From Aquabacterium sp. (GTDB taxonomy: Bacteria; Pseudomonadota; Gammaproteobacteria; Burkholderiales; Burkholderiaceae_C), in contig SCTQ01000021.1 in assembly GCA_004322345.1 (NCBI GenBank), forward strand, positions 1 through 42,219: 42,219 nucleotides of DNA, read 5' to 3'. The position numbers were made by a program, and so were the translations under genes. The notes under the pieces were generated by a model. The model was given only the letters and a program-made list of their open reading frames with translations. It ran no database searches and had not been told where the DNA came from. Below, piece after piece: positions 7,370-17,792 of this stretch; within the stretch, counting starts at the first letter, position 1, and each line of letters opens with the position of its first letter.

Positions 7370-9565
7370 ATGTCCCACCTTGCCCTCGACGGCCCCATCG
7401 CCAAGCCCGGCGAAGACCGCCTGCGCCGCCTGGACCAGGTGCGCGCCATCGTGCGCATGCTGGCCGACACCAGCCCGGCGGGCTTCGTCGTCTCGGTGGA
7501 AGGCGGCTGGGGCAGCGGCAAGACCTCGGTGCTCAACCTGATCCGCCACCTGCTGGACGAGGAGCCCGAGGACAAGCGGCCCATCTTCGTGCCCTTCAGC
7601 CCCTGGCTGGTGGGCGATGCGGGCTCGCTGGCGGCGGAATTTCTCAAGCAGCTGGCGCTGGGCATTTCCGTGCCGCGCAAGCAGGCCATCCTCGGCAGCG
7701 CCATCAAGACCACCGACGTGGCGATGAAGATCGCCAAGTACCTGCGCTACGTGCCCGGCACCGGGGTGGCGCGCGAGGCACTGGAGGACTTGGAGAAGGC
7801 GCTGGGCGCGACGAAGGACATGCTGCAGGCGGCCGAGGACGGAAAGAACCCCGACGTGAACCGACACAAGGACGCGGTCTTCGAGGCCCTCGCCGCGCTG
7901 GACCGCCCGGTGGTCGTCGTGCTGGACGACGTGGACCGCCTGCCACCCAAGGACGTCTACGAGGTGATCCGCCTGGTGCGCGCGGTGGGCGACTTCCCGC
8001 GCGTGCGCTACCTGCTGGCGCTGGACGCGGGCTACGTGGAAGGCGCGCTGGAGAAGGTGGGCGTGGCGCAGGCGGCCAATTTCCTGGACAAGATCTTCCT
8101 GCACCGCTTCGTGCTGCCGGCGGTGTTCCCGGAGGAGCTGTCGCGGGAGCTGGCGGAGCGCCTGGAGCGGCTGGCCGAGGACGCCAAGGCCGGCCAGCCC
8201 TTCCTGCTGCCGTGGCGCGAGCGGCTGCAGGTCTTGCTGGATGCCGGCCTGGGCGACCTCTTGGGCACGCTGCGCGACGTGAAGGTCGTGGCCAACCGCG
8301 TGCAATTGCAGCTGGCCCTGTGCGAGGACATCAACCTGGCCGAGCTGGCGGCACTGGAGACGCTGGCCGTGAAGGCGCCGGCGGTCTACCGGCAGATGTT
8401 GCGGGATCCCGATGCCTACACCGGGGCCGCGCGGCGTGGCGTGGGCGACCTGACCAGCCGCGCGCGCTGGGATGCGGCAATGGCCGACCGCGACCGCGTG
8501 CTGCAGGAAACGCCGGAGAACCTGCGTGGTGCTGCCAGGCGCACCGTGGACCTGCTGTTCCCGCCGCAAGCGGTCGAATTCGGAGGCCGGCTGGAGGTGG
8601 GCTATCCCGACGCAGTGCTCGACGGTCTGCTGTGCAGCCCCTCGCGCCTGCGCATCGCCGTATCCGGCCACGTGCCGCGCAACGACCTGCGGCTGCGCGA
8701 CCTGCTGGCCTTCTGCATGGAAGAAGGTGGTCGCCGCGAAATCGTCGCCGGGGTTGCGCAACACGGCTGGGTGGCGCGCTTCGCCTGGCTGCTGGAGCGC
8801 TGGACCAGCCGGCCCTACGCGCCGGTCCAGCCCGAAGACATGTTGGCCTGGCTGGGCGAGCTGGTGGACGATGTCCGCGTCCAGCGCCAGCTGGCGGTCG
8901 AGCGGCACATGGAGGGCCGGCTGAGGGAGATCGCCCTGCGCCTGCGCCTGCGCGCCGGTCAAGGCGGCGAGCCGCTGCTGCGCGGGGGCTTCGGCGTCAC
9001 GCTCTCCTTCTGGGAAATGGAGCTGCTGGCCAGCAAGGATCCGCTTCGTTACGCAGGGGTCCTGCTGTCGCAGCAATCCCTGCCGCCGGACCAGGGGCTC
9101 GACGACGAGGCGCTCGCGCTGTTCATCGACGGGCTGCCCGAACACGCGCCGGACATCTGGCTGCCCTTCGTCCAGGGCCGCATCGCCAGCGGCGCCTGCG
9201 CCGAGCTGGCCTGCCTGCGCCCGATGTGCCAGCTGCGCGACCGGCTGCTCGCCCACCGGCGCGGCGACGCGCCGCAACCTCTGGAGCTGCCGCCCCACCT
9301 GTGGGCCCACGTGGACCATGACATCGATCGCCGCGGCCGCGTCTTCTACTTCTCGCGCACGAGGCTTCCTTTCGCGCAGCGCGCCGAGGCCGAAACCTAC
9401 CTGGCCCGCGACGACCTGCTGCCGCACCAGCGCGCGGGCCTGATGGCCCAGCTGCAGGCGGACAGCATCCGCGAGGACGACCTGTCGGTCGTCGCCTTCG
9501 CCGACCTGGCGCCCTACTTCGTCCCGCCGACGGGCTCCGCGCCGACCTGGCCGCCGGCCTTCTGA
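7370..9565 (+). CDS. KAP family P-loop NTPase
   Basis: A 731-residue protein with a KAP-type NTPase domain. Walker A is GGWGSGKTS at 45-53, and PFSPWLVGD at about 75-83 is the family's F.PW segment. A strong Walker B, VVVVLDDVDR at 181-190, is followed by FLDKIFLHRFVLP (about 238-250). Residues 340-731 are not recognisable. KAP ATPases usually have membrane segments inserted between Walker A and B; here the insert (about 90-170) is polar and helical, so the protein looks soluble. The ATG at 7370 is preceded by AGGGAG. Roles in the family range from membrane-associated assembly to phage exclusion; none can be assigned here. It converges on the next gene with a 1-base gap. Confidence 0.8.
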   Translation: MSHLALDGPIAKPGEDRLRRLDQVRAIVRMLADTSPAGFVVSVEGGWGSGKTSVLNLIRHLLDEEPEDKRPIFVPFSPWLVGDAGSLAAEFLKQLALGISVPRKQAILGSAIKTTDVAMKIAKYLRYVPGTGVAREALEDLEKALGATKDMLQAAEDGKNPDVNRHKDAVFEALAALDRPVVVVLDDVDRLPPKDVYEVIRLVRAVGDFPRVRYLLALDAGYVEGALEKVGVAQAANFLDKIFLHRFVLPAVFPEELSRELAERLERLAEDAKAGQPFLLPWRERLQVLLDAGLGDLLGTLRDVKVVANRVQLQLALCEDINLAELAALETLAVKAPAVYRQMLRDPDAYTGAARRGVGDLTSRARWDAAMADRDRVLQETPENLRGAARRTVDLLFPPQAVEFGGRLEVGYPDAVLDGLLCSPSRLRIAVSGHVPRNDLRLRDLLAFCMEEGGRREIVAGVAQHGWVARFAWLLERWTSRPYAPVQPEDMLAWLGELVDDVRVQRQLAVERHMEGRLREIALRLRLRAGQGGEPLLRGGFGVTLSFWEMELLASKDPLRYAGVLLSQQSLPPDQGLDDEALALFIDGLPEHAPDIWLPFVQGRIASGACAELACLRPMCQLRDRLLAHRRGDAPQPLELPPHLWAHVDHDIDRRGRVFYFSRTRLPFAQRAEAETYLARDDLLPHQRAGLMAQLQADSIREDDLSVVAFADLAPYFVPPTGSAPTWPPAF

Positions 9566-9566
9566 A

Positions 9567-10121
9567 TCAGCCCGCCGCGCCTACCGTGCGCACGGGCCCG
9601 GCCAGCCGCTCCACCTCGGCCTTCAGCCCGCTGCGCAAGCCGAGCAGGAACAGCGCCTCGGCGACCACGAACAGCGGGCCGACCACCAGCCCGATCAGGT
9701 CGTCCACGAAGGCCGGCTTGCGGCCCTCGAACCAGTGGCCGATGAACTGGATGATCCAGCCGGCCACGAAGCCTCCCAGGCCGATCGCCAGCCACACCGG
9801 CGTGGATTGCGCCGCGCTCCATGCGCCGAACCACAGCGACAGGCCCATCAGCACCGTCATCAACAGCCCCAGGACCCGCTCCAGCGACAGGTAGAACACG
9901 CTGAAGCCGATGGCGAACAGGTCCGCCGGCGCCAGGCTGACGCCGGCGACCTCGAAACCCGGCCGCGACAGCAGGGCCGAGAAAGCGAGCACGATCATCG
10001 GGATGCCGATGAAGTGCGAGGCGATGTTCGCGGGATGGCGGTGGTAGGCGGCGTATTGGGCAAGCTGCCCGCTCAGCGTCTTCAAGATCCGGCCTTTCGG
10101 TGTGTCGTCCGTCGGCATCAT
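9567..10121 (-). CDS. Mpo1-like (DUF962/YGL010w) membrane protein
   Basis: About 184 residues with the family signature AAYHRHPANIASHFIGIPMI near the N-terminus and WIIQFIGHWFEGRKPAFVDD later, separated and followed by four to five hydrophobic segments. Conserved His residues in these motifs match the iron-binding histidines of yeast Mpo1, a dioxygenase in 2-hydroxy-fatty-acid alpha-oxidation. The bacterial role is not established. The start is uncertain: ATG at 10121 or 10118, or GTG at 10160; the ATG pair was chosen because the upstream residues are not conserved in character. Its stop is 1 base from the KAP stop. Confidence 0.8.
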   Translation of the reverse strand: MMPTDDTPKGRILKTLSGQLAQYAAYHRHPANIASHFIGIPMIVLAFSALLSRPGFEVAGVSLAPADLFAIGFSVFYLSLERVLGLLMTVLMGLSLWFGAWSAAQSTPVWLAIGLGGFVAGWIIQFIGHWFEGRKPAFVDDLIGLVVGPLFVVAEALFLLGLRSGLKAEVERLAGPVRTVGAAG

Positions 10122-10182
10122 CCGTCGCCCGGGCGGCGGAATCAGTCGGGAAGCCGACACAAACCGCGGACGCCCGGCAGGC

Positions 10183-11394
10183 TCACTGCACGTCGCCCAC
10201 GCGTACCTTCTCGCCCTTCCTCAGCGTGAACACGGCCACCGGCGCATCGACGTTGTCCCCGCGGGTGTCGAAGCTGACCGGGCCGGCCAGGCCCTGGTAG
10301 CCGCGCGTGCGCGCCAGCTGGGGCAGGTACTGCGCGGGATCGGCACTGCCGGCGGCGACCATGGCCTGGGCCAGCACCTGCACGGCGTCGTAGGCCAGCG
10401 GCGAGTACACGGTGGTGTTCTCCGGATGCGCCTGTTCGATGCGCCGGGCGAAGGCGTCGACGCCGGCCTCGGCCTCCACGCGCGGATGGCCGCCCTCGCC
10501 GCACCACAGGCGGCCGTCGGCGGCGCTGCCCTTTAGCTCCTCGGCCAGGCGGCGGCCGCAGACCGCGTCGGCGACGACGACGTCCAGCGTGGCCCTGGCC
10601 TCGGCCACCTGCCTGAGGAGCGGGCCGACCTGGTCGTCCAGCGCGCCGACGAAGAGCAGGTCCACCTTGTCCTGGCGCAGGCGGGCCAGCAGCTTGCGGA
10701 AGTTGGTCGCGTGCTCGTCGACCTGGCTGCGCTGCTGCACGGCCAGGCCGGCGGCCTTCAGCCCGTCGGCGAAGGAGTCGGCCATCAGCTTGCCATAGGG
10801 GGTGCCGTTGTCCACCACGGCCACGCGCGCCGCCGGCCAGGTGCGGGCGGCGTAGCGCGCGATGGCTGCGGCCTGCCGGCCGTCGTCGGCCACCAGGCGG
10901 AAGGAGGTGCGCCAGCCGGAGGCCGTCCATTGCGGGTCGGTGGCCGAGGGGGTGATCGCGGGCACGCCGGCCGCGGCATAGAGCTCGGCGGCGGCGATGG
11001 TCGCGCGGGCGTTCAGGTGGCCGACGACGCCGGCGACCTGGCGCTGCAGCAGCCGCTGGGCGGCACCGCGGGCGCGCTCGGGATCGGCATGGTCGTCCTC
11101 GGACACCAGCTCGAAGGTGGCCGGGCGGCCGCCGATGCGCAGCGCGCGGGAATTGAGGTCGTCCACCGCGAGCTGGGCGCCGCGCTGCACGTCCAGACCG
11201 AATTCGGCCTGCGGGCCGGACAGCGGCGCCGCCTGGCCGATGCGCACGCGCAGCGGCTGCGCGGCGGGCACGGCCGCAGCGGCGACGGCGGGAGTCTTGG
11301 GCTTGGAGCTGCAGGCCGCCAGCAGGACGGCCGAAGTGATGGCGGCAGCCGTGATGGCACGGCGGCACAGGCGGCGGATGCGCGATTGATCCAT
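10183..11394 (-). CDS. Periplasmic binding lipoprotein, branched-chain amino acid type (LivJ-like)
   Basis: A 403-residue protein with a lipoprotein signal (AVLLAAC-SSK, lipidated Cys near residue 28), then a type I periplasmic binding fold. RIGQAAPLSGPQAEFGLDVQ at the start of lobe 1, GVVGHLNARATIAAAELY, and GVPAITPSATDP as the ligand-proximal loop are typical of ABC substrate-binding proteins of the Leu/Ile/Val family. No permease or ATPase gene is adjacent, so it is an orphan binding protein or serves a transporter elsewhere. The ATG at 11394 was chosen over an upstream in-frame start because it places the signal peptide at the N-terminus. Confidence 0.88.
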   Translation of the reverse strand: MDQSRIRRLCRRAITAAAITSAVLLAACSSKPKTPAVAAAAVPAAQPLRVRIGQAAPLSGPQAEFGLDVQRGAQLAVDDLNSRALRIGGRPATFELVSEDDHADPERARGAAQRLLQRQVAGVVGHLNARATIAAAELYAAAGVPAITPSATDPQWTASGWRTSFRLVADDGRQAAAIARYAARTWPAARVAVVDNGTPYGKLMADSFADGLKAAGLAVQQRSQVDEHATNFRKLLARLRQDKVDLLFVGALDDQVGPLLRQVAEARATLDVVVADAVCGRRLAEELKGSAADGRLWCGEGGHPRVEAEAGVDAFARRIEQAHPENTTVYSPLAYDAVQVLAQAMVAAGSADPAQYLPQLARTRGYQGLAGPVSFDTRGDNVDAPVAVFTLRKGEKVRVGDVQ

Positions 11395-11847
11395 GTGGCG
11401 GCGGCCCGCATAGCGCCGGGCCCGGCTTTGAACGAGCCGCGGATTGTGTGCCAAGCCGCGGGCCGGCCTGCAACGCGCCGCCGGACGGCGCCGATCCAGG
11501 CGCCCGCGGAGGTCAGCGCAAGCCGCCCGTGAAGTTGTCGAACGCCTCCGGGCAATCGTCCTGGGTCACCTGGATCCTCGGCACCGGGACCCGCACCACC
11601 ACCGAGCCATTCCGGGGCTGGACCTGCTCCCATTCGTTTCATCCCGCCCCCTGAAGACAATCCTGCACAGCGCTTGTGGCGTTCGCGCCTGCCTGTCGGG
11701 GATCGCTGCGCAGGTACGGTTCCTGCAGCCCACTCGAATCGGGGGCCGCCGGACACCCGCATGGCACGAGCTTGGGATTGCGCGCCGCACCCGGCCTGCC
11801 CGAAGGTGCCGACCTTTCCCGCAAGGGACCATGCAGGGGACACGACG
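11395..11847. other. 453-bp intergenic region before mtnK
   Basis: No complete gene is seen. The left part holds a short minus-strand coding-like remnant (11513-11638, listed separately). The right 200 bases lead into mtnK, with GGGGA 8 bases before its ATG. I looked for SAM- or SAH-riboswitch-like structure and could not support one. Confidence 0.4.
11513..11638 (-). pseudogene. Possible 3' remnant of an unidentified gene
   Basis: A 41-codon open frame ends in TGA at 11513-11515 and is preceded directly by an in-frame TGA at 11639-11641, with no ATG. Its third codon positions are almost all G or C, and its sequence (starting NEWEQVQPRNGSVVVRV and ending FDNFTGGLR) has the composition of a genuine protein tail. 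It could be the surviving end of a decayed gene, or a short gene using the GTG cluster at codons 13-15. I do not recognise the family. Confidence 0.3.
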
Positions 11848-13110
11848 ATGAGCTACCAGGCATTGAGCGCAGCATCCTTGCCGGCCTACCTGGCCTCGGT
11901 GCCGGCGCTGCGCGAGCGCTTCAGCGACCTCGGCGACCTGGAGGTGGCCGAGGTGGGCGACGGCAACCTGAACCTCGTCTTCCTGGTCACCCAGCGCGGC
12001 CGGCCCGAGCAGACCCTGGTGCTCAAGCAGGCCCTGCCCTACCTGCGCTGCGTGGGCGAGAGCTGGCCGCTGACGCGCCACCGCATGGACATCGAGGTGC
12101 GGGCGCTGCAGGTCTTCGGCGCGCTGTGCCCGCAGCATGTGCCCGAGGTCTTCCACGCCAGCAGCGAGATGTCGCTGGTGGCCATGCGCCGGCTGGGCGA
12201 GCACATCGTGCTGCGCCACGGCCTGATCGCCGGCACCGTCTACCCGAAGCTGGCCGATCACCTGTCCACCTACCTGGCGCGCACGCTCTTCTTCACCTCG
12301 GACCTGCACCTGCCGCCCGAGGCCAAGAAGCAGGCGGTGGCCGCCGCCGCCAACACCGAGCTGTGCAAGATCACCGAGGACCTGGTCTTCACCCACCCCT
12401 ACGACGACAGCCCGTCCAACGCCTATCCGCCCGGCCTGCCGCGCGCGGCCATCGAGCGCATCCAGCGCAACGCCGGCCTGCGCGCCGCGGTGGCCGAGAT
12501 GAAGTACCTCTTCATGACCGCCGCCGAGGCCCGGCTGCACGGCGACCTGCACACCGGCTCGGTGATGGTCAACGGCGACGAGACCTGGGTCATCGACCCC
12601 GAGTTCTCGTTCTACGGCCCGATGGGCTTCGACACCGGCGCCATGCTGGCCAACCTGCTGATGGCCTGGCTCGCCGCCGAGCCGCGCCAGCGCGCCGCGG
12701 GCAACGACCCGGCGACCTACCAGGCGTGGCTGCTGGACACGGTGTGCGCGGTGTGGGAGGGCTTCGAGGCCAAGTTCCTCGCGTTGTGGCGTGCGCAGGA
12801 AGCGCAGGGCCAGGGTTTCATCGGCAAGGACCTGGACGGCGACAGCGCCGAGGCCTTCCGCGCCGCCTTCATGCGCCGCCTCTTCGCCGACACCCTGGGC
12901 TTCGCCGCCTGCAAGATCATGCGGCGCATCGTCGGCCTGGCGAAGGTGGCCGACATCGCCGGCATCGCCGACGAGGCCGCCCGCACCCAGGCCGAGGTGC
13001 GCGCGCTGCGCCTGGCCGAACACCTGCTGCTCAACCGCCGCGACATCGCCTCCATGGACGGCGTGCGCGCGGCGCTGCGCGGCGTCTGCTCCGCATCCCT
13101 GTCCAGCTGA
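11848..13110 (+). CDS. mtnK: S-methyl-5-thioribose kinase
   Basis: A 420-residue kinase of the choline-kinase fold. The glycine loop is GDGNLNLVF at 38-46, the catalytic loop is HGDLHTGS at 232-239, and the metal and substrate segment is DPEFSFYGPMGFD at 251-263, all diagnostic of MtnK. It phosphorylates methylthioribose, from the polyamine and ethylene by-product methylthioadenosine, to the 1-phosphate; family members may also take 5-deoxyribose. The ATG at 11848 follows GGGGA. It starts a tight run with mtnA (3-base gap) and the aldolase/dehydrogenase fusion. The usual downstream salvage genes mtnB, mtnC and mtnD are absent from this cluster. Confidence 0.92.
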   Translation: MSYQALSAASLPAYLASVPALRERFSDLGDLEVAEVGDGNLNLVFLVTQRGRPEQTLVLKQALPYLRCVGESWPLTRHRMDIEVRALQVFGALCPQHVPEVFHASSEMSLVAMRRLGEHIVLRHGLIAGTVYPKLADHLSTYLARTLFFTSDLHLPPEAKKQAVAAAANTELCKITEDLVFTHPYDDSPSNAYPPGLPRAAIERIQRNAGLRAAVAEMKYLFMTAAEARLHGDLHTGSVMVNGDETWVIDPEFSFYGPMGFDTGAMLANLLMAWLAAEPRQRAAGNDPATYQAWLLDTVCAVWEGFEAKFLALWRAQEAQGQGFIGKDLDGDSAEAFRAAFMRRLFADTLGFAACKIMRRIVGLAKVADIAGIADEAARTQAEVRALRLAEHLLLNRRDIASMDGVRAALRGVCSASLSS

Positions 13111-13113
13111 CCC

Positions 13114-14169
13114 ATGCCCCTGCCCACGACCGCCCTGCCCCCCACCCTGGAATGGCGCGACGACGCCCTCCACCTGCTGGACCAGACCCTGCTGCCCAAC
13201 GAGATCGTCGTCGAGCGCCAGCACGACGCGCAGCAGGTCTGGCACGCCATCCACCAGCTGAAGGTGCGCGGCGCGCCCGCCATCGGCGTGGCCGGCGCCT
13301 ACGGCCTGTGCGTGGCGATGCAGCCGCACCGCGCCCTGCCGGCCGCGGCCTTCCGCGACAAGCTGGGCGAGCAGGCGGCCTACCTCGACTCCTCGCGCCC
13401 GACGGCCGTCAACCTGCACTGGGCCCTGCAGCGCATGCAGGCCAGCCTCGGCGGGCGAGATGACGCCGGCGGCGAGGCCCTCTACCAGGCGCTGGTCGAC
13501 GAGGCCCAGGCCATCCACGCCGAGGACGTCGCGCTGTGCGAGGGCATCGGCCGCCATGGCCTGCCGCTGATCCGCCCCGGCTGCGGCGTGCTGACCCACT
13601 GCAACGCCGGCGCGCTGGCCACCACCGGCATCGGCACCGCCACCGCGCCGATGTACCTGGCGCAGCGCGCGGGCATCCCCTTGCGCGTCTACGCCGACGA
13701 GACGCGCCCGCTGCTGCAGGGCGCGCGGCTGACCTCCTTCGAGCTGCAGCGCAGCGGCATCGACGTCACGCTGATCACCGACAACATGGCCGCCGCCACG
13801 ATGCAGCGCGGCCTGGTGGACCTGGTCATCGTCGGCACCGACCGCGTGGCCGCCAACGGCGACGTCGCCAACAAGATCGGCACGCTGGGCGTGGCCATCC
13901 TGGCCAGGCACTTCGGCATTCCCTTCTACGTCGCCTGCCCCTCGTCCACGCTGGACCTGGCCACGCCCGACGGCCAACGCATCGTCATCGAGGAGCGCGG
14001 CGCCGAGGAGGTCACCAGCTTCGGCCTGCGCCGCACCGCACCCGAGGGCATGCAGGTCCGCAACCCGGCCTTCGACGTGACGCCGCACGCGCTGGTCAGC
14101 GGCTTCATCACCGAACGCGGGCTGATCGAGCCGCCCTTCGACCGCCAGTTCGCCGCCCTCTTCTCCTGA
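13114..14169 (+). CDS. mtnA: S-methyl-5-thioribose-1-phosphate isomerase
   Basis: A 351-residue protein of the eIF2B-like isomerase family at normal length. KVRGAPAIGVAGAYG (50-64) binds substrate. The catalytic Cys is C163 in LTHCNAGALATTG, and the catalytic Asp is D243 in VGTDRVAANGDVANKIGT. It isomerises methylthioribose-1-phosphate to methylthioribulose-1-phosphate in the cytosol and may accept 5-deoxyribose-1-phosphate. It sits 3 bases after mtnK and 23 bases before the aldolase fusion, consistent with a single transcript in which its product is passed to that aldolase. Confidence 0.95.
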   Translation: MPLPTTALPPTLEWRDDALHLLDQTLLPNEIVVERQHDAQQVWHAIHQLKVRGAPAIGVAGAYGLCVAMQPHRALPAAAFRDKLGEQAAYLDSSRPTAVNLHWALQRMQASLGGRDDAGGEALYQALVDEAQAIHAEDVALCEGIGRHGLPLIRPGCGVLTHCNAGALATTGIGTATAPMYLAQRAGIPLRVYADETRPLLQGARLTSFELQRSGIDVTLITDNMAAATMQRGLVDLVIVGTDRVAANGDVANKIGTLGVAILARHFGIPFYVACPSSTLDLATPDGQRIVIEERGAEEVTSFGLRRTAPEGMQVRNPAFDVTPHALVSGFITERGLIEPPFDRQFAALFS

Positions 14170-14192
14170 ATCCCTTTCGCGAAATCCAAGCC

Positions 14193-16241
14193 ATGAAGAA
14201 CCTCTGGTCCGGCGCCGAAGCCGATCGCCTCGTCACCCACTACGCGCAGCAGGGGCACCACGCCGACGTGGCGCTGCGCGTCTACACCTCGCGCCTGCTG
14301 GGGATCGAGCCCGCGCTGGTGCTGCACGGCGGCGGCAACACCTCGGTGAAGACGCGGCTGCGCGACGTGGCCGGCGACGAGGTGGAGGTGCTGTGCGTCA
14401 AGGGCTCGGGCTGGGACATGGGCAACATCGAGCCCGCCGGCCTGCCCGCGGTGCGCCTGCAGCCGCTGCGCCGGCTGGCCGCGCTGGAGCGGCTGTCCGA
14501 CGAGGACATGGTCAACGCCCAGCGCTGCAACCTGATGGACGCCTCGGCGCCCAACCCGTCGGTGGAGACGCTGCTGCACGCCTTCCTGCCGCACAAGTTC
14601 ATCGACCACACGCATGCCAACGCGGTGCTGGCGCTGTCCGACCAGCCCGATGGCATCGCCATCTGCCAGGACCTGTACGGCAACGAGATGGCCATCGTCG
14701 ACTACGTGATGCCCGGCTTCCTGCTGGCCAAGGCCGCCGCGGCCGCGCATGAGCAGCAGCCCGGCGTGCAGGGCCTGATCCTGCACAAGCACGGCATCTT
14801 CAGCTTCGGCGAGACGGCTGAGGAAGCCTACGAACGCATGATCCGCATGGTCACGCGCGCGGAGCAGCGCATCGCACGCGTCAGCGTCGCAGTGCCCGCA
14901 GCGGCCCCCGTCGCGGCGGCCCCGGCCGCCGACGTGCTGCCGCTGCTGCGCGGCGCCCTGGCCCAGCAACTGGGCGACGGCCGCCACCAGCGCTGGATCG
15001 CCAGCCTGCGCAACGGCCCTGCGGCCCTGGCCTTCGTCGGCCGCGCCGACCTGCAGCAGGCGGCCTGGAGCGGCGTCATCACGCCCGACCACGGCATCCG
15101 CATCAAGAACAGGCCGCTGGTGCTGTCGCGCCCGCAGCCCGGCGCGCTGGCCGATTGGGAAGCCGACACCGCGCAGCGCCTGGACGCCTATGCCGCCGAC
15201 TACCGCGCCTACTTCGAGCGCCAGAACGCACGCGTGGGCGGCGGCCGCAAGCAACTGGATGCGCTGCCCCGCGTGCTGCTGGTGCCGGGCGTGGGGGTCG
15301 TCGCCTTCGGCAAGTCCAAGGCCGATGCCGAGATCGCCGCCGACCTGGCCGAGACCACCATCACCACGCTGAACTGGGCCGAAGCCGTGGGCCGCTTCGA
15401 GCCGCTGTCCGAGGATCACCTCTTCGACATGGAGTACTGGCCGCTGGAGCAGGCCAAGCTGGGCAAGGCCGCGGAAGCGCCGCTGGCACGCCAGGTGGTG
15501 CTGGTCACCGGCGGCGCGGGCGCGATCGGCGCGGCCACGGCCAAGCTCTTTGCGCGACACGGTGCCGAGGTCGTCGTGCTCGACCTGGATGGCGAAGCCG
15601 CGCAGGCCGTCGCCAAGTCCTGCGGCCGCCACGCGCTGGGCCTGGCCTGCGACGTGACCGACCCGCAAGCCGTGCGCGCCGCCTTCGACGCGGCCTGCCT
15701 GCGCTTCGGCGGCGTGGACATCGTGGTCTCCAATGCCGGCGCGGCCTGGGAAGGTGCCATCGCGACGCTGGACGACGCCGTGCTGCGCAGGAGCTTCGAG
15801 CTGAACTTCTTCTCCCACCAGGGCGTGGCGCAGAACGCCGTGCGCGTGATGAAGGCCCAGGGCAGCGGCGGTGCGCTGCTGTTCAACGTCTCCAAGCAGG
15901 CCGTCAACCCGGGCGCCAACTTCGGCGCCTATGGCACGTCCAAGGCCGCGACCCTGCTGCTGGCGCGCCAGTACGCGCTGGAGCACGGCGCCGACGGCAT
16001 CCGCGTCAACGCGGTCAACGCCGACCGCATACGCAGCGGCCTGCTGACGGAGAAGATGATCGCCTCGCGCGCCAGCTCGCGCGGCCTGAGCGAACACGAC
16101 TACATGCGCGGCAACCTGCTGCAGCAGGAGGTCACCGCCGAGGACGTGGCCCTGGCGTTCGTGCACCAGGCGCTGGAGATGAAGACCACCGGCGGGGTGA
16201 CGACGGTGGACGGCGGCAACATCGCAGCCGCGCTGCGCTAG
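14193..16241 (+). CDS. Class II aldolase / short-chain dehydrogenase fusion (RhaD-RhaE type)
   Basis: A 682-residue two-domain enzyme. Residues 1-230 are a class II (adducin-type) aldolase: HGGGNTS at 45-51 for phosphate, and zinc ligands in HTHAN (H139, H141) and LILHKHG (H198 or H200). A helical linker spans about 240-430. Residues 433-682 are an SDR: VTGGAGAIG at 438-446, NAG at 514-516, S567, and Y580-x3-K584, ending with TVDGGNIAAA. Homologues split sugar-1-phosphates into dihydroxyacetone phosphate and an aldehyde, then oxidise the aldehyde (rhamnulose-1-phosphate giving lactaldehyde). Next to mtnK-mtnA, the likely substrate is methylthioribulose- or 5-deoxyribulose-1-phosphate; this is an inference. 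L-rhamnose use is the main alternative, but no rhamnose genes are nearby. Confidence 0.88.
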   Translation: MKNLWSGAEADRLVTHYAQQGHHADVALRVYTSRLLGIEPALVLHGGGNTSVKTRLRDVAGDEVEVLCVKGSGWDMGNIEPAGLPAVRLQPLRRLAALERLSDEDMVNAQRCNLMDASAPNPSVETLLHAFLPHKFIDHTHANAVLALSDQPDGIAICQDLYGNEMAIVDYVMPGFLLAKAAAAAHEQQPGVQGLILHKHGIFSFGETAEEAYERMIRMVTRAEQRIARVSVAVPAAAPVAAAPAADVLPLLRGALAQQLGDGRHQRWIASLRNGPAALAFVGRADLQQAAWSGVITPDHGIRIKNRPLVLSRPQPGALADWEADTAQRLDAYAADYRAYFERQNARVGGGRKQLDALPRVLLVPGVGVVAFGKSKADAEIAADLAETTITTLNWAEAVGRFEPLSEDHLFDMEYWPLEQAKLGKAAEAPLARQVVLVTGGAGAIGAATAKLFARHGAEVVVLDLDGEAAQAVAKSCGRHALGLACDVTDPQAVRAAFDAACLRFGGVDIVVSNAGAAWEGAIATLDDAVLRRSFELNFFSHQGVAQNAVRVMKAQGSGGALLFNVSKQAVNPGANFGAYGTSKAATLLLARQYALEHGADGIRVNAVNADRIRSGLLTEKMIASRASSRGLSEHDYMRGNLLQQEVTAEDVALAFVHQALEMKTTGGVTTVDGGNIAAALR

Positions 16242-16305
16242 CGTGGTGACTAGGCACCGGGCTTGCCGCGCCTCCTGCAGGACCCACCCCTGCAAGGAGA
16301 CCCGC

Positions 16306-16686
16306 ATGCTCGGCAAACTTCCCGTCAGCGCCAACATCGCCACCCGTGACCTGGAAGCCGCCCGCCGCTTCTACGTCGACATCCTGGGCCTGGAGCAGGT
16401 CGGCTCCGAAGGCGACGAGCTGATCGTGCTGCGCAGCGGCCCGACCGCCGTCAACGTCTACCGCTCCGACTACGCCGGCACCAACCGCGCAACGGCGCTG
16501 ACCTGGGACACCGACGCCGCGCTCGACGGGCTGGTGCAGGCGCTGCGCGATCGCGGGGTGCGCTTCGAGCACTACCCGGACCTGCCCGGCCTGCAGCTGC
16601 AGGGCGACGTGCATGTCGCCGGCCACATGAAGCTGGTGTGGTTCAAGGACCCGGACGGCAACATCCTCAATCTCGTGGGCCGTTGA
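16306..16686 (+). CDS. VOC (glyoxalase/bleomycin-resistance) superfamily protein
   Basis: A 126-residue protein with two beta-alpha-beta-beta-beta modules. The first opens with VSANIATRDLEAARRFYVD and ILGLEQVG; the second ends with KLVWFKDPDGNILNLVG, the usual C-terminal signature. A good ribosome binding site, AAGGAG, precedes the ATG. The His usually found in the first strand of metal-dependent members is missing, so the function (isomerase, dioxygenase or binding protein) cannot be named. It lies 64 bases after the aldolase fusion and could be the last gene of that transcript. A MITE-like element follows 34 bases after its stop. Confidence 0.8.
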   Translation: MLGKLPVSANIATRDLEAARRFYVDILGLEQVGSEGDELIVLRSGPTAVNVYRSDYAGTNRATALTWDTDAALDGLVQALRDRGVRFEHYPDLPGLQLQGDVHVAGHMKLVWFKDPDGNILNLVGR

Positions 16687-17096
16687 CCCGCAAGGTATGC
16701 AGACGTAAGCCAGGCTTCCCTAGGGCCTGTTAACGCTACCGGAGGATGCGCGTGATTCAGGAAACGGGCGCCATCGAGGCGCAAAGCGCAGCCGTAGCGG
16801 TGGCTACGGCGAGCATTTGCAACGCGGAGGGCGCCCGTTTCCTGAAGGCACCGGAAGGGCTGGAGCCTGGCAAGGCGCTGGGCGTCGTTGCAGCCTCGTT
16901 GTGTGCCGAAGGCACACGGCCTTGGCTGCGCCTAGCCCAGCGCCTTGCCAGGCTTCAGCGCGCGTCCTCCGGTAGTGTTAACAGGCCCTAGTTCGATTCA
17001 TGGGGCGTTGCCGCCGCCGGGGCCATCACTCGATAGTCGGCGCGCAGGACCCGCCGGCCGCGGCCGGCACACCCATCATCGAAACCAGGAGCCCCC
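16687..17096. other. 410-bp intergenic region dominated by a MITE-like element
   Basis: It contains the element at 16724-16987 and its flanks. Outside the element, 16687-16719 and 16992-17096 show no gene, RNA or clear promoter; the last bases hold the AGGAG ribosome binding site for the PEP-CTERM gene at 17097. Confidence 0.6.
16724..16987. mobile_element. MITE-like element with structured interior
   Basis: About 264 bp flanked by CTAG on both sides (16720-16723 and 16988-16991), consistent with a 4-bp target duplication of the YTAR type used by IS5-group elements. Including the shared TA/G ends, terminal inverted repeats cover 16721-16752 and 16959-16990: 32 bp with 2 mismatches, outer part GGGCCTGTTAAC. 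Between them lie two more long inverted repeats: 16758-16772 with 16830-16844 (15 bp, perfect), enclosing a GCCGTAGC/GCTACGGC hairpin, and 16860-16883 with 16935-16958 (24 bp, 1 mismatch), enclosing GTGTGCC-GAA-GGCACAC. No transposase is encoded. As single strand it would fold into a three-way junction. Confidence 0.8.
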
Positions 17097-17792
17097 ATGA
17101 AGCCTTTCATCCTCGTGCCCGCCCTCGGCGGCATCGTCGCCCTCGCCTGCAGCCTGCCCGCCCACGCGCTGACGCTCGCGCCCTCCGATCAGGGCAACAT
17201 CAGCGAGGTGGACTCCCGGCTCGGCGTGCCGCCGTCCGTGCTGACGCTGAACCCCGACGACACCAACGTCTCGGTCGCATCGCTGAGCACCGTCGGCGGC
17301 TCGGTCACCCGGCGCGGCTATGTCTGGTTCGACATCCCGGACGCCGTCACCGACGCGAGTGCCGTCACGCTGAAGGTGGACGTCGTGGCGCTGGGCGCCG
17401 GCTCGATCAGCTTCAACCTGGTGTCCGTCGAACACGGCTTCGATGATTTCCAGGTGGCCCTCAGCGGGCCGCCGACGACGGCCGGCACGGACCTGATCTT
17501 CGACCTGTCCAACGGAGACAGCTACCTGGACCCCGTCACGCTGGACGCCAGCACCTCCCTGATCGGCGCCAGCTTCGCGCTCTCGGCCTCCGCAGTCGCC
17601 GCGGTCAATGCAGCCCACGGCGGGCGCTTCGCCATCGGCTTCACCGGCCTCGGGTCCCTGGCCAGCCTGGAGTTCATCCACCCGGTACTGGAGGTGACGA
17701 CCGCCGTGCCCGAGCCTTCCAGCTGGCTGCTCGGCAGCATCGGCCTGCTGGCGGCCGTGGTGCGCTGGCGGCGTGTCGCCGTGCGCGGCTGA
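17097..17792 (+). CDS. PEP-CTERM sorting-signal protein, unknown function
   Basis: A 231-residue exported protein. The signal peptide ends near LPAHA-LTL (residue 24). The body is rich in beta-strand-forming and small residues, with RGYVWFDIPDAV and FDDFQVAL segments, suggesting a beta-sandwich. The tail is VPEPSSWLLG, a hydrophobic run, then RWRRV: a standard PEP-CTERM sorting motif. Such proteins are processed by exosortase and often associate with exopolysaccharide or biofilm matrix. I do not recognise the mature domain. It has no operon partner: 410 bases separate it from the previous gene, and the next gene converges on it with a 12-base gap. Confidence 0.8.
   Translation: MKPFILVPALGGIVALACSLPAHALTLAPSDQGNISEVDSRLGVPPSVLTLNPDDTNVSVASLSTVGGSVTRRGYVWFDIPDAVTDASAVTLKVDVVALGAGSISFNLVSVEHGFDDFQVALSGPPTTAGTDLIFDLSNGDSYLDPVTLDASTSLIGASFALSASAVAAVNAAHGGRFAIGFTGLGSLASLEFIHPVLEVTTAVPEPSSWLLGSIGLLAAVVRWRRVAVRG

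Follow-up and report, generated by a model that had tools for sequence, protein, structure and literature searches.

A putative dihydroxyacetone phosphate shunt operon in Aquabacterium with a class II aldolase/short-chain dehydrogenase fusion downstream of mtnK and mtnA

What takes over the product of MtnA in a bacterium whose mtnK-mtnA pair is followed by a gene other than mtnB, mtnC or mtnD? The question is raised by a stretch of Aquabacterium sp. DNA (assembly GCA_004322345.1, contig SCTQ01000021.1, positions 1 to 42,219; hereafter the window), in which mtnK and mtnA lead into a gene for a 682-residue fusion of a class II aldolase and a short-chain dehydrogenase (SDR). An earlier note, made from the letters of the window alone, had proposed that the three genes form a dihydroxyacetone phosphate (DHAP) shunt operon with built-in aldehyde disposal. 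Our comparison of sequences supports this proposal, as no mtnBCD set was found in the genome and the fusion and mtnA are conserved neighbours. We consider it probable that the operon encodes a DHAP shunt in which a fusion related to RhaEW (YuxG, rhamnulose-1-phosphate aldolase/lactaldehyde dehydrogenase) takes the place of the usual aldolase, Ald2 or DrdA, and deals with the aldehyde within the same polypeptide, in either redox direction. The fusion is accordingly described here as a proposed 5-(methylthio)- or 5-deoxyribulose-1-phosphate aldolase with a built-in aldehyde dehydrogenase or reductase.

The layout given in the earlier note was borne out by coordinates and family models alike. The genes mtnK (11848-13110, plus strand), encoding a 420-aa S-methyl-5-thioribose/5-deoxyribose kinase (TIGR01767, 498.6 bits, cut-off 275), and mtnA (13114-14169, plus strand), encoding the 1-phosphate isomerase (TIGR00512, 427.4 bits, cut-off 279), are separated by 3 bases. 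The fusion gene (14193-16241, plus strand) follows mtnA after 23 bases. All three genes are intact and run in one direction, and mtnB, mtnC and mtnD are indeed absent from the cluster. The best family for the fusion was NF006192, a model named 'bifunctional aldolase/short-chain dehydrogenase' (1063.6 bits, cut-off 639). Its N-terminal part belongs to the class II aldolase family PF00596. The aldolase domain was placed at residues 1-227 (14193-14873, plus strand) on the basis of a Foldseek match to 3m4r and conserved columns, and the SDR domain at residues 433-680 (15489-16232, plus strand) on the basis of PF00106, Foldseek matches to SDRs and conserved columns. Pfam placed Aldolase_II at 31-226 and adh_short at 435-618, positions that are one too high because the query carried an additional N-terminal residue. 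An AlphaFold2 model built from a 52-sequence alignment reached a mean pLDDT of 88.8 and a pTM of 0.90. Its best Foldseek match was 3m4r, a class II aldolase domain of Thermoplasma acidophilum (TMt 0.94, 39% identity), and SDRs were listed next. The region between the two domains (residues ~240-425; 14910-15467) was predicted to be folded; among the matches listed, PDB sequence rows cover the flanking domains only, and Foldseek rows comprise the aldolase domain and SDRs.

A complete mtnBCD set elsewhere in the genome, which the earlier note had named as a point that would speak against its proposal, was not found in the host assembly (4.9 Mb, 453 contigs, 99% complete) in searches with PF00596, PF03079, TIGR01691 and TIGR03328. 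There was no match to MtnD (PF03079) or MtnC (TIGR01691) at E ≤ 0.001. The two class II aldolases recovered with PF00596 were the fusion and an NF005451 protein, and the latter scored 41.6 bits on the MtnB model TIGR03328 (cut-off 137), so that MtnB was not found either. With MtnC and MtnD unmatched and the only other aldolase below the MtnB cut-off, the product of MtnA has no visible canonical onward route. MtnN was encoded on contig C248 (296.3 bits, cut-off 169). It is one of three PNP_UDP_1 proteins of the host, the others being a methylthioadenosine (MTA)-nucleosidase-like protein and an AMP nucleosidase; none of the three matched an MtnP model. In these searches, no plausible next enzyme other than the fusion was seen for the ribulose-1-phosphate that MtnN, MtnK and MtnA would supply. 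The MTA-nucleosidase-like protein (contig C126, locus L004, 1474-2493) has, by eye, a signal-peptide-like N-terminus, and its gene adjoins one for a BMP-family-like ATP-binding cassette (ABC) substrate-binding protein; this nucleosidase could free adenine or methylthioribose (MTR) outside the cytoplasm.

In the pathway that we propose, MtnN, encoded elsewhere on the chromosome, would cleave MTA or 5'-deoxyadenosine, both by-products of S-adenosylmethionine. MtnK would phosphorylate the freed MTR or 5-deoxyribose at C1, and MtnA would isomerise the sugar 1-phosphate to the ribulose-1-phosphate. The aldolase domain would then split this into DHAP and 2-methylthioacetaldehyde or acetaldehyde, and the SDR domain of the same chain would remove the aldehyde, yielding (methylthio)acetate if the step is an NAD+-dependent oxidation. 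We infer the catalytic steps, the substrate and the redox direction alike; NAD+-dependent oxidation has in our view about an even chance of being the aldehyde step, and oxidation appears somewhat more likely than reduction. Removal of the aldehyde by the fused SDR would also pull an unfavourable aldol cleavage forward. Two reports suggest this role. Passages of PMC6079011 place the equilibrium strongly on the side of uncleaved 5-deoxyribulose-1-phosphate, and the Chloroflexus RhaEW described in passages of PMC3870299 oxidises lactaldehyde with NAD+, is inactive with NADH and, in the absence of NAD+, yields no DHAP and no lactate.

We filed the operon as a variant of the DHAP shunt that would work like RhaEW without being a RhaEW member. 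With the shunts of Escherichia coli ATCC 25922 (mtnK-mtnA-ald2) and Bacillus thuringiensis (drdK-drdI-drdA), it shares a clustered kinase, isomerase and class II aldolase, a nucleosidase encoded elsewhere, the lack of an MtnBCD branch in the operon, and the predicted products DHAP and (methylthio)acetaldehyde. Unlike them, it encodes a 682-aa RhaEW-related aldolase with an SDR of its own rather than a short FucA-like Ald2 or DrdA, whereas the published shunts, in the portions of the papers available, leave aldehyde removal to a separate or unassigned alcohol dehydrogenase. With canonical methionine salvage (MtnK-MtnA-MtnB-MtnC-MtnD), the operon has the first two enzymes in common; MtnB, MtnC and MtnD were not found, and the fusion is proposed to take MtnA's product instead.

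Conservation of the gene neighbourhood was assessed in 86 close fusion sequences (at least 58% identity), comprising the window's own, the top 80 among 461 loci from named genomes, and five plasmid loci chosen from 25 records at 60-80% identity. Neighbours were counted by tblastn (E ≤ 1e-12) within 6 kb. In this set, mtnA was found near 42 of the 86 fusions, in 30 of these cases upstream and on the same strand. At least one of mtnK, mtnA and mtnP was present at 49 of 86 loci, and at 34 of the 53 loci flanked by 4 kb or more of sequence on each side. The conservation of gene order anticipated in the earlier note held in part: fusion and mtnA are neighbours in many relatives, but the exact order mtnK-mtnA-fusion occurred at just four of the 86 loci, namely the window, a Gemmatirosa plasmid (76% identity), a Comamonadaceae bacterium (66%) and a betaproteobacterial metagenome-assembled genome (65%). 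Eleven loci, all from Rhizobiales (Rhizobiaceae, Devosiaceae and one unassigned), had what we call the ABC layout: a SorC-type regulator, the fusion, a sugar ABC transporter on the opposite strand, and then mtnK-mtnA. At ten others mtnP and mtnA stood upstream of the fusion, joined by apt in four. The rest of the 49 loci had mtnA alone (15), mtnP alone (7), or mtnA with apt (2).

The association of the fusion with mtnA was also seen at greater distance, in a survey of 300 genomes of the same order. The fusion, called at E ≤ 1e-100, was carried by 29 genomes, among which the host's alone passed the NF006192 cut-off. A mtnA gene was present in 27 of these 29 genomes compared to 124 of the 271 others (Fisher p = 5.4e-7). 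The two fusion carriers without mtnA (L150 and L151) have their fusions inside rhamnose loci; setting them aside gave 27 of 27 versus 124 of 273 (p = 4.2e-9). Both p-values are nominal rather than strict, because the surveyed genomes are related. The 26 survey relatives that were 37-42% identical to the fusion (L140 included) were treated as a distant group. For 24 of them, mtnA lay within 6 kb of the fusion, and for 21 within 300 bp; among the 24, it was located downstream in 23, unlike in the window, where it is upstream. In one distant relative (L131), mtnA was on the other strand, and in two (L142 and L147, from genomes G295 and G002) it was farther off or elsewhere in the genome; three additionally had mtnP. 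Six relatives of 45-51% identity (L040, L157, L158, L159, L161 and L162) were counted in neither group; in one of them, L157 from Ruegeria, mtnA adjoins the fusion. The operon itself looks acquired, because few genomes of the order have mtnK (4 of 300) and, at the limits used, neither the fusion nor mtnK nor mtnA turned up in the eight survey genomes of the same family. G+C content gave no hint of an acquisition.

One surveyed genome of the order, G119, offered a direct comparison. There, mtnK-mtnA is followed by a gene for a 220-aa FucA-like aldolase, whose best models were L-fuculose-phosphate aldolases (257.7 bits, just below the cut-off of 264), then by a ribose-binding-protein-like gene and by further ABC genes that were identified solely by eye. 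The published DHAP shunt has this layout. What counts in the comparison is the slot: the place after mtnK-mtnA is held by an aldolase in G119 and by the fusion in the window. Leaving aside loci with the window's own layout, MtnK and MtnA of G119 were the nearest to those of the window (55% and 66% identity), compared to 40% and 43% for G099, which has a MtnD-like gene nearby.

The residues of the fusion were compared among the close and distant groups and six rhamnose-type fusions, two of which (L150 and L151) had turned up in the order survey and four (L154, L155, L156 and L160) from plasmid matches, three of the latter four having been picked for their annotated name. His139, His141, His200 and the GGN motif at 47-49 were identical in all close, distant and rhamnose-type rows. 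Together with Glu125, they are predicted to have active-site roles in the aldolase domain, by analogy with PMC3870299. Residue 125 was Glu in all 86 close and all 26 distant rows and Asp in five of the six rhamnose-type rows; passages of PMC3870299 note that RhaE has Asp where RhaD has the catalytic Glu. As the sixth rhamnose-type row, L160, has Glu, the residue is not strictly diagnostic of RhaEW. In the SDR domain, Asp464, Tyr580 and Lys584 were invariant across the three sets of rows, and residue 567 was Ser in 82 and Thr in four of the 86 close rows. We take residues 440-446 to be the Gly-rich loop and Ser567-Tyr580-Lys584, with Asp464, to have the roles usual for SDR motifs. Asp464 suggests NAD(H) as the cofactor, and is presumably compatible with NADH as well as NAD+.

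Several observations weigh against the proposed shunt or narrow its reach. We found no activity data for any mtn-linked fusion. The D-ribulose-1-phosphate sugars have the L-fuculose (3R,4R) configuration, and L-rhamnulose-1-phosphate, the sugar cleaved by the characterised RhaEW, is (3R,4S); because the substrates differ in this way, the aldolase must differ from RhaEW in stereochemistry, a point in favour of a genuine shift in specificity. Residues 609-614 of the SDR domain mostly read NADRIR in the close group, HPNAVD in the distant group and NPDAVG in the rhamnose group, so that the aldehyde step may not be uniform across groups. At 37 of the 86 close loci (19 of 53 when both flanks reach 4 kb or more), no mtnK, mtnA or mtnP was found within 6 kb. 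We searched 20 of the corresponding genomes; 18 had mtnA elsewhere, and two had no mtnA at all. A clade of 16 Reyranella-type rows (L099, L100 and L115 among them) lacks mtn neighbours. A xanthine phosphoribosyltransferase gene was nearby in 14 of the 16, mtnA was present elsewhere in the five genomes searched, and another substrate is possible in this clade. In L041, the closest relative among the best 80 of the 461 loci (79% identity), mtnA is present, but mtnK is missing from the 7 kb upstream. MtnK and MtnA of the ABC-layout loci were 41% and 44-48% (partial) identical to those of the window, no closer than those of G099. Their similarity therefore does not mark the pathway, and closeness to G119 was dropped as a pathway marker. 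The loss of MtnD was likewise given little weight as a marker: of 39 genomes that carry a close fusion, 36 had no PF03079 match (one of the others scored 85 bits and two near 28, cut-off 27), but this absence is weak evidence because MtnD is rare across the order, where just 10 of 300 genomes pass the cut-off.

A further point of this kind concerns the fate of the aldehyde. According to passages of PMC10986504 and PMC5893883, the aldehyde made by the published DHAP shunts is for the most part converted to an alcohol. It is reported to become mainly 2-methylthioethanol or ethanol in E. coli, R. rubrum and R. palustris, with a putative alcohol dehydrogenase responsible in R. rubrum and R. palustris. 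The E. coli shunt gave ethanol alone in air and a mixture with acetate without air. The SDR domain might, then, reduce the aldehyde with NADH to 2-methylthioethanol or ethanol and so correspond to the unnamed alcohol dehydrogenase of those shunts. That Asp464 suits either form of the cofactor, together with the general ability of SDRs to run in both directions, fits such a reduction. It is opposed by Chloroflexus RhaEW, the one fusion of the same architecture for which a test of direction was seen; per the passages of PMC3870299, it depends on NAD+ and is inactive with NADH. Because the close and rhamnose groups are unlike in their SDR loops, the direction of RhaEW is not transferable with certainty. 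On balance, we regard the reductive version of the shunt as rather unlikely, though as the most serious of the alternatives.

Less probable still is a shunt-like pathway that serves mainly another 5-substituted ribose derivative, entering via MtnK and MtnA, in place of MTA or 5'-deoxyadenosine. The SorC-type regulator and sugar ABC transporter of the 11 Rhizobiales loci look as expected for an external carbon source, but such a transporter equally suits the uptake of 5-deoxyribose or MTR. Moreover, mtnP, which encodes MTA phosphorylase, replaces mtnK in another layout, with apt at four of its loci for the recovery of adenine, and this replacement points to MTA or 5'-deoxyadenosine as the substrate. 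B. thuringiensis DrdK was inactive on ribose and 2-deoxyribose, according to passages of PMC6079011.

The earlier note had likened the fusion to RhaD-RhaE fusions. The likeness stood as far as the two-domain architecture is concerned: domain order, length class, histidines, SDR residues and Asp464 are shared with RhaEW, and NCBI rhamnulose models match the fusion at lower score. It did not extend to sequence, clade or context. The fusion is 33-36% identical to the six rhamnose-locus relatives and did not reach the cut-off of the rhamnulose-1-phosphate model TIGR02632 (481.8 versus 567.75 bits). In a quick maximum-likelihood tree (124 rows, midpoint root, three long branches flagged), all six rhamnose-locus fusions formed one group (SH-like approximate likelihood ratio test, SH-aLRT, 100), and none of the 74 rows with mtn neighbours fell within it. 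The gene rhaI lay near all six of them, but within 6 kb of none of the 86 close sequences, and the rhizobial-type rhamnose isomerase (TIGR02629) was not found in the host genome, where RhaA was not searched for. The association with mtnA, furthermore, is seen in both of two divergent groups whose gene orders differ. That the fusion is a RhaEW acting on L-rhamnulose-1-phosphate, with mtnK-mtnA beside it by accident, is hence very improbable, and we rejected this reading on grouping, score, context and residue 125. Equally improbable is that mtnK and mtnA are remnants of a broken methionine salvage pathway next to an unrelated fusion: they are that pathway's first two steps and MtnB, MtnC and MtnD were not found, but the genes are intact with short gaps, many relatives likewise have a fusion of this family together with mtnA, mtnK or mtnP, and a related mtnK-mtnA pair of the same order precedes a FucA-like aldolase.

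With the DHAP shunt as the preferred reading, we found no description of an aldolase-SDR fusion in such a shunt in the open-access library searched; a subscription paper on the E. coli shunt was outside its reach. The term 'short-chain' was absent from PMC6302742, PMC10986504, PMC5893883, PMC12632272 and PMC8102628. The passages of PMC6079011 with 'fusion' or 'fused' concern an Arabidopsis enzyme, and the passages of PMC10418091 on a type of gene cluster with Ald2, MtnK and MtnA mention no fusion. Going beyond the operon, we put forward, with confidence a little short of even, a widespread oxidative DHAP shunt that would convert MTA or 5'-deoxyadenosine to DHAP, methylthioacetate or acetate, and NADH in many Alphaproteobacteria, some Betaproteobacteria and others. 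In such a shunt, the fused dehydrogenase would drive the aldol cleavage and keep a reactive aldehyde from the cytosol, and the sulfur of MTA would end in methylthioacetate, as opposed to methylthioethanol in the known shunts. In the available portions of the DHAP-shunt papers, aldehyde removal is in most cases not assigned to an enzyme, and it is the FucA-like aldolase that identifies the pathway. Another aldolase that belongs to a different subfamily, carries a dehydrogenase and goes with mtnA would extend the pathway to many genomes missed by searches with Ald2 or DrdA, and part of the large 'bifunctional aldolase/short-chain dehydrogenase' annotation would gain a meaning. Where the sulfur of MTA goes and what drives the cleavage would both be directly testable with one purified protein.

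Some relatives of intermediate identity stood in other surroundings. Three fusions ~51% identical to that of the window form a group of their own. Two of them (L040 and L158) have glycerol-3-phosphate dehydrogenase and sugar ABC genes as neighbours, and the third (L161) lies close to an iron-containing alcohol dehydrogenase. Unfused relatives of 413-416 aa, consisting of the aldolase and the middle region with no SDR, were encoded on Sinorhizobium meliloti pSymB (L159, 6001-7251) and on an Alloyangia pacifica plasmid (L162, 6001-7242). Both come after lsrA, permeases and lsrB in autoinducer-2 (AI-2) uptake loci, and this relative may cleave a phospho-AI-2 product.

Within the window, the fusion gene is followed by a gene for a VOC-family protein (16306-16686), as had been noted previously, but it is not conserved with the cluster. 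Neither this gene nor nine other flanking proteins of the window had a match at any other fusion locus searched; a further flanking frame, interrupted by a stop in translation, was set aside. The VOC gene was rejected as a part of the system on this ground and is probably unrelated. There was no Rfam match at the gathering score in 9400-17100 and no sigma-70-like promoter match in 11440-17100; terminator-like matches in the latter interval numbered two, compared to 2.0 in shuffles. Farther downstream, positions 16720-16991 hold a 272-base nested palindrome with 33-nt outer arms and two inner hairpins. Genome-wide, 113 pieces match it, several of them at contig ends, consistent with a dispersed repeat resembling a miniature inverted-repeat transposable element, which may help explain why the assembly is in 453 contigs.

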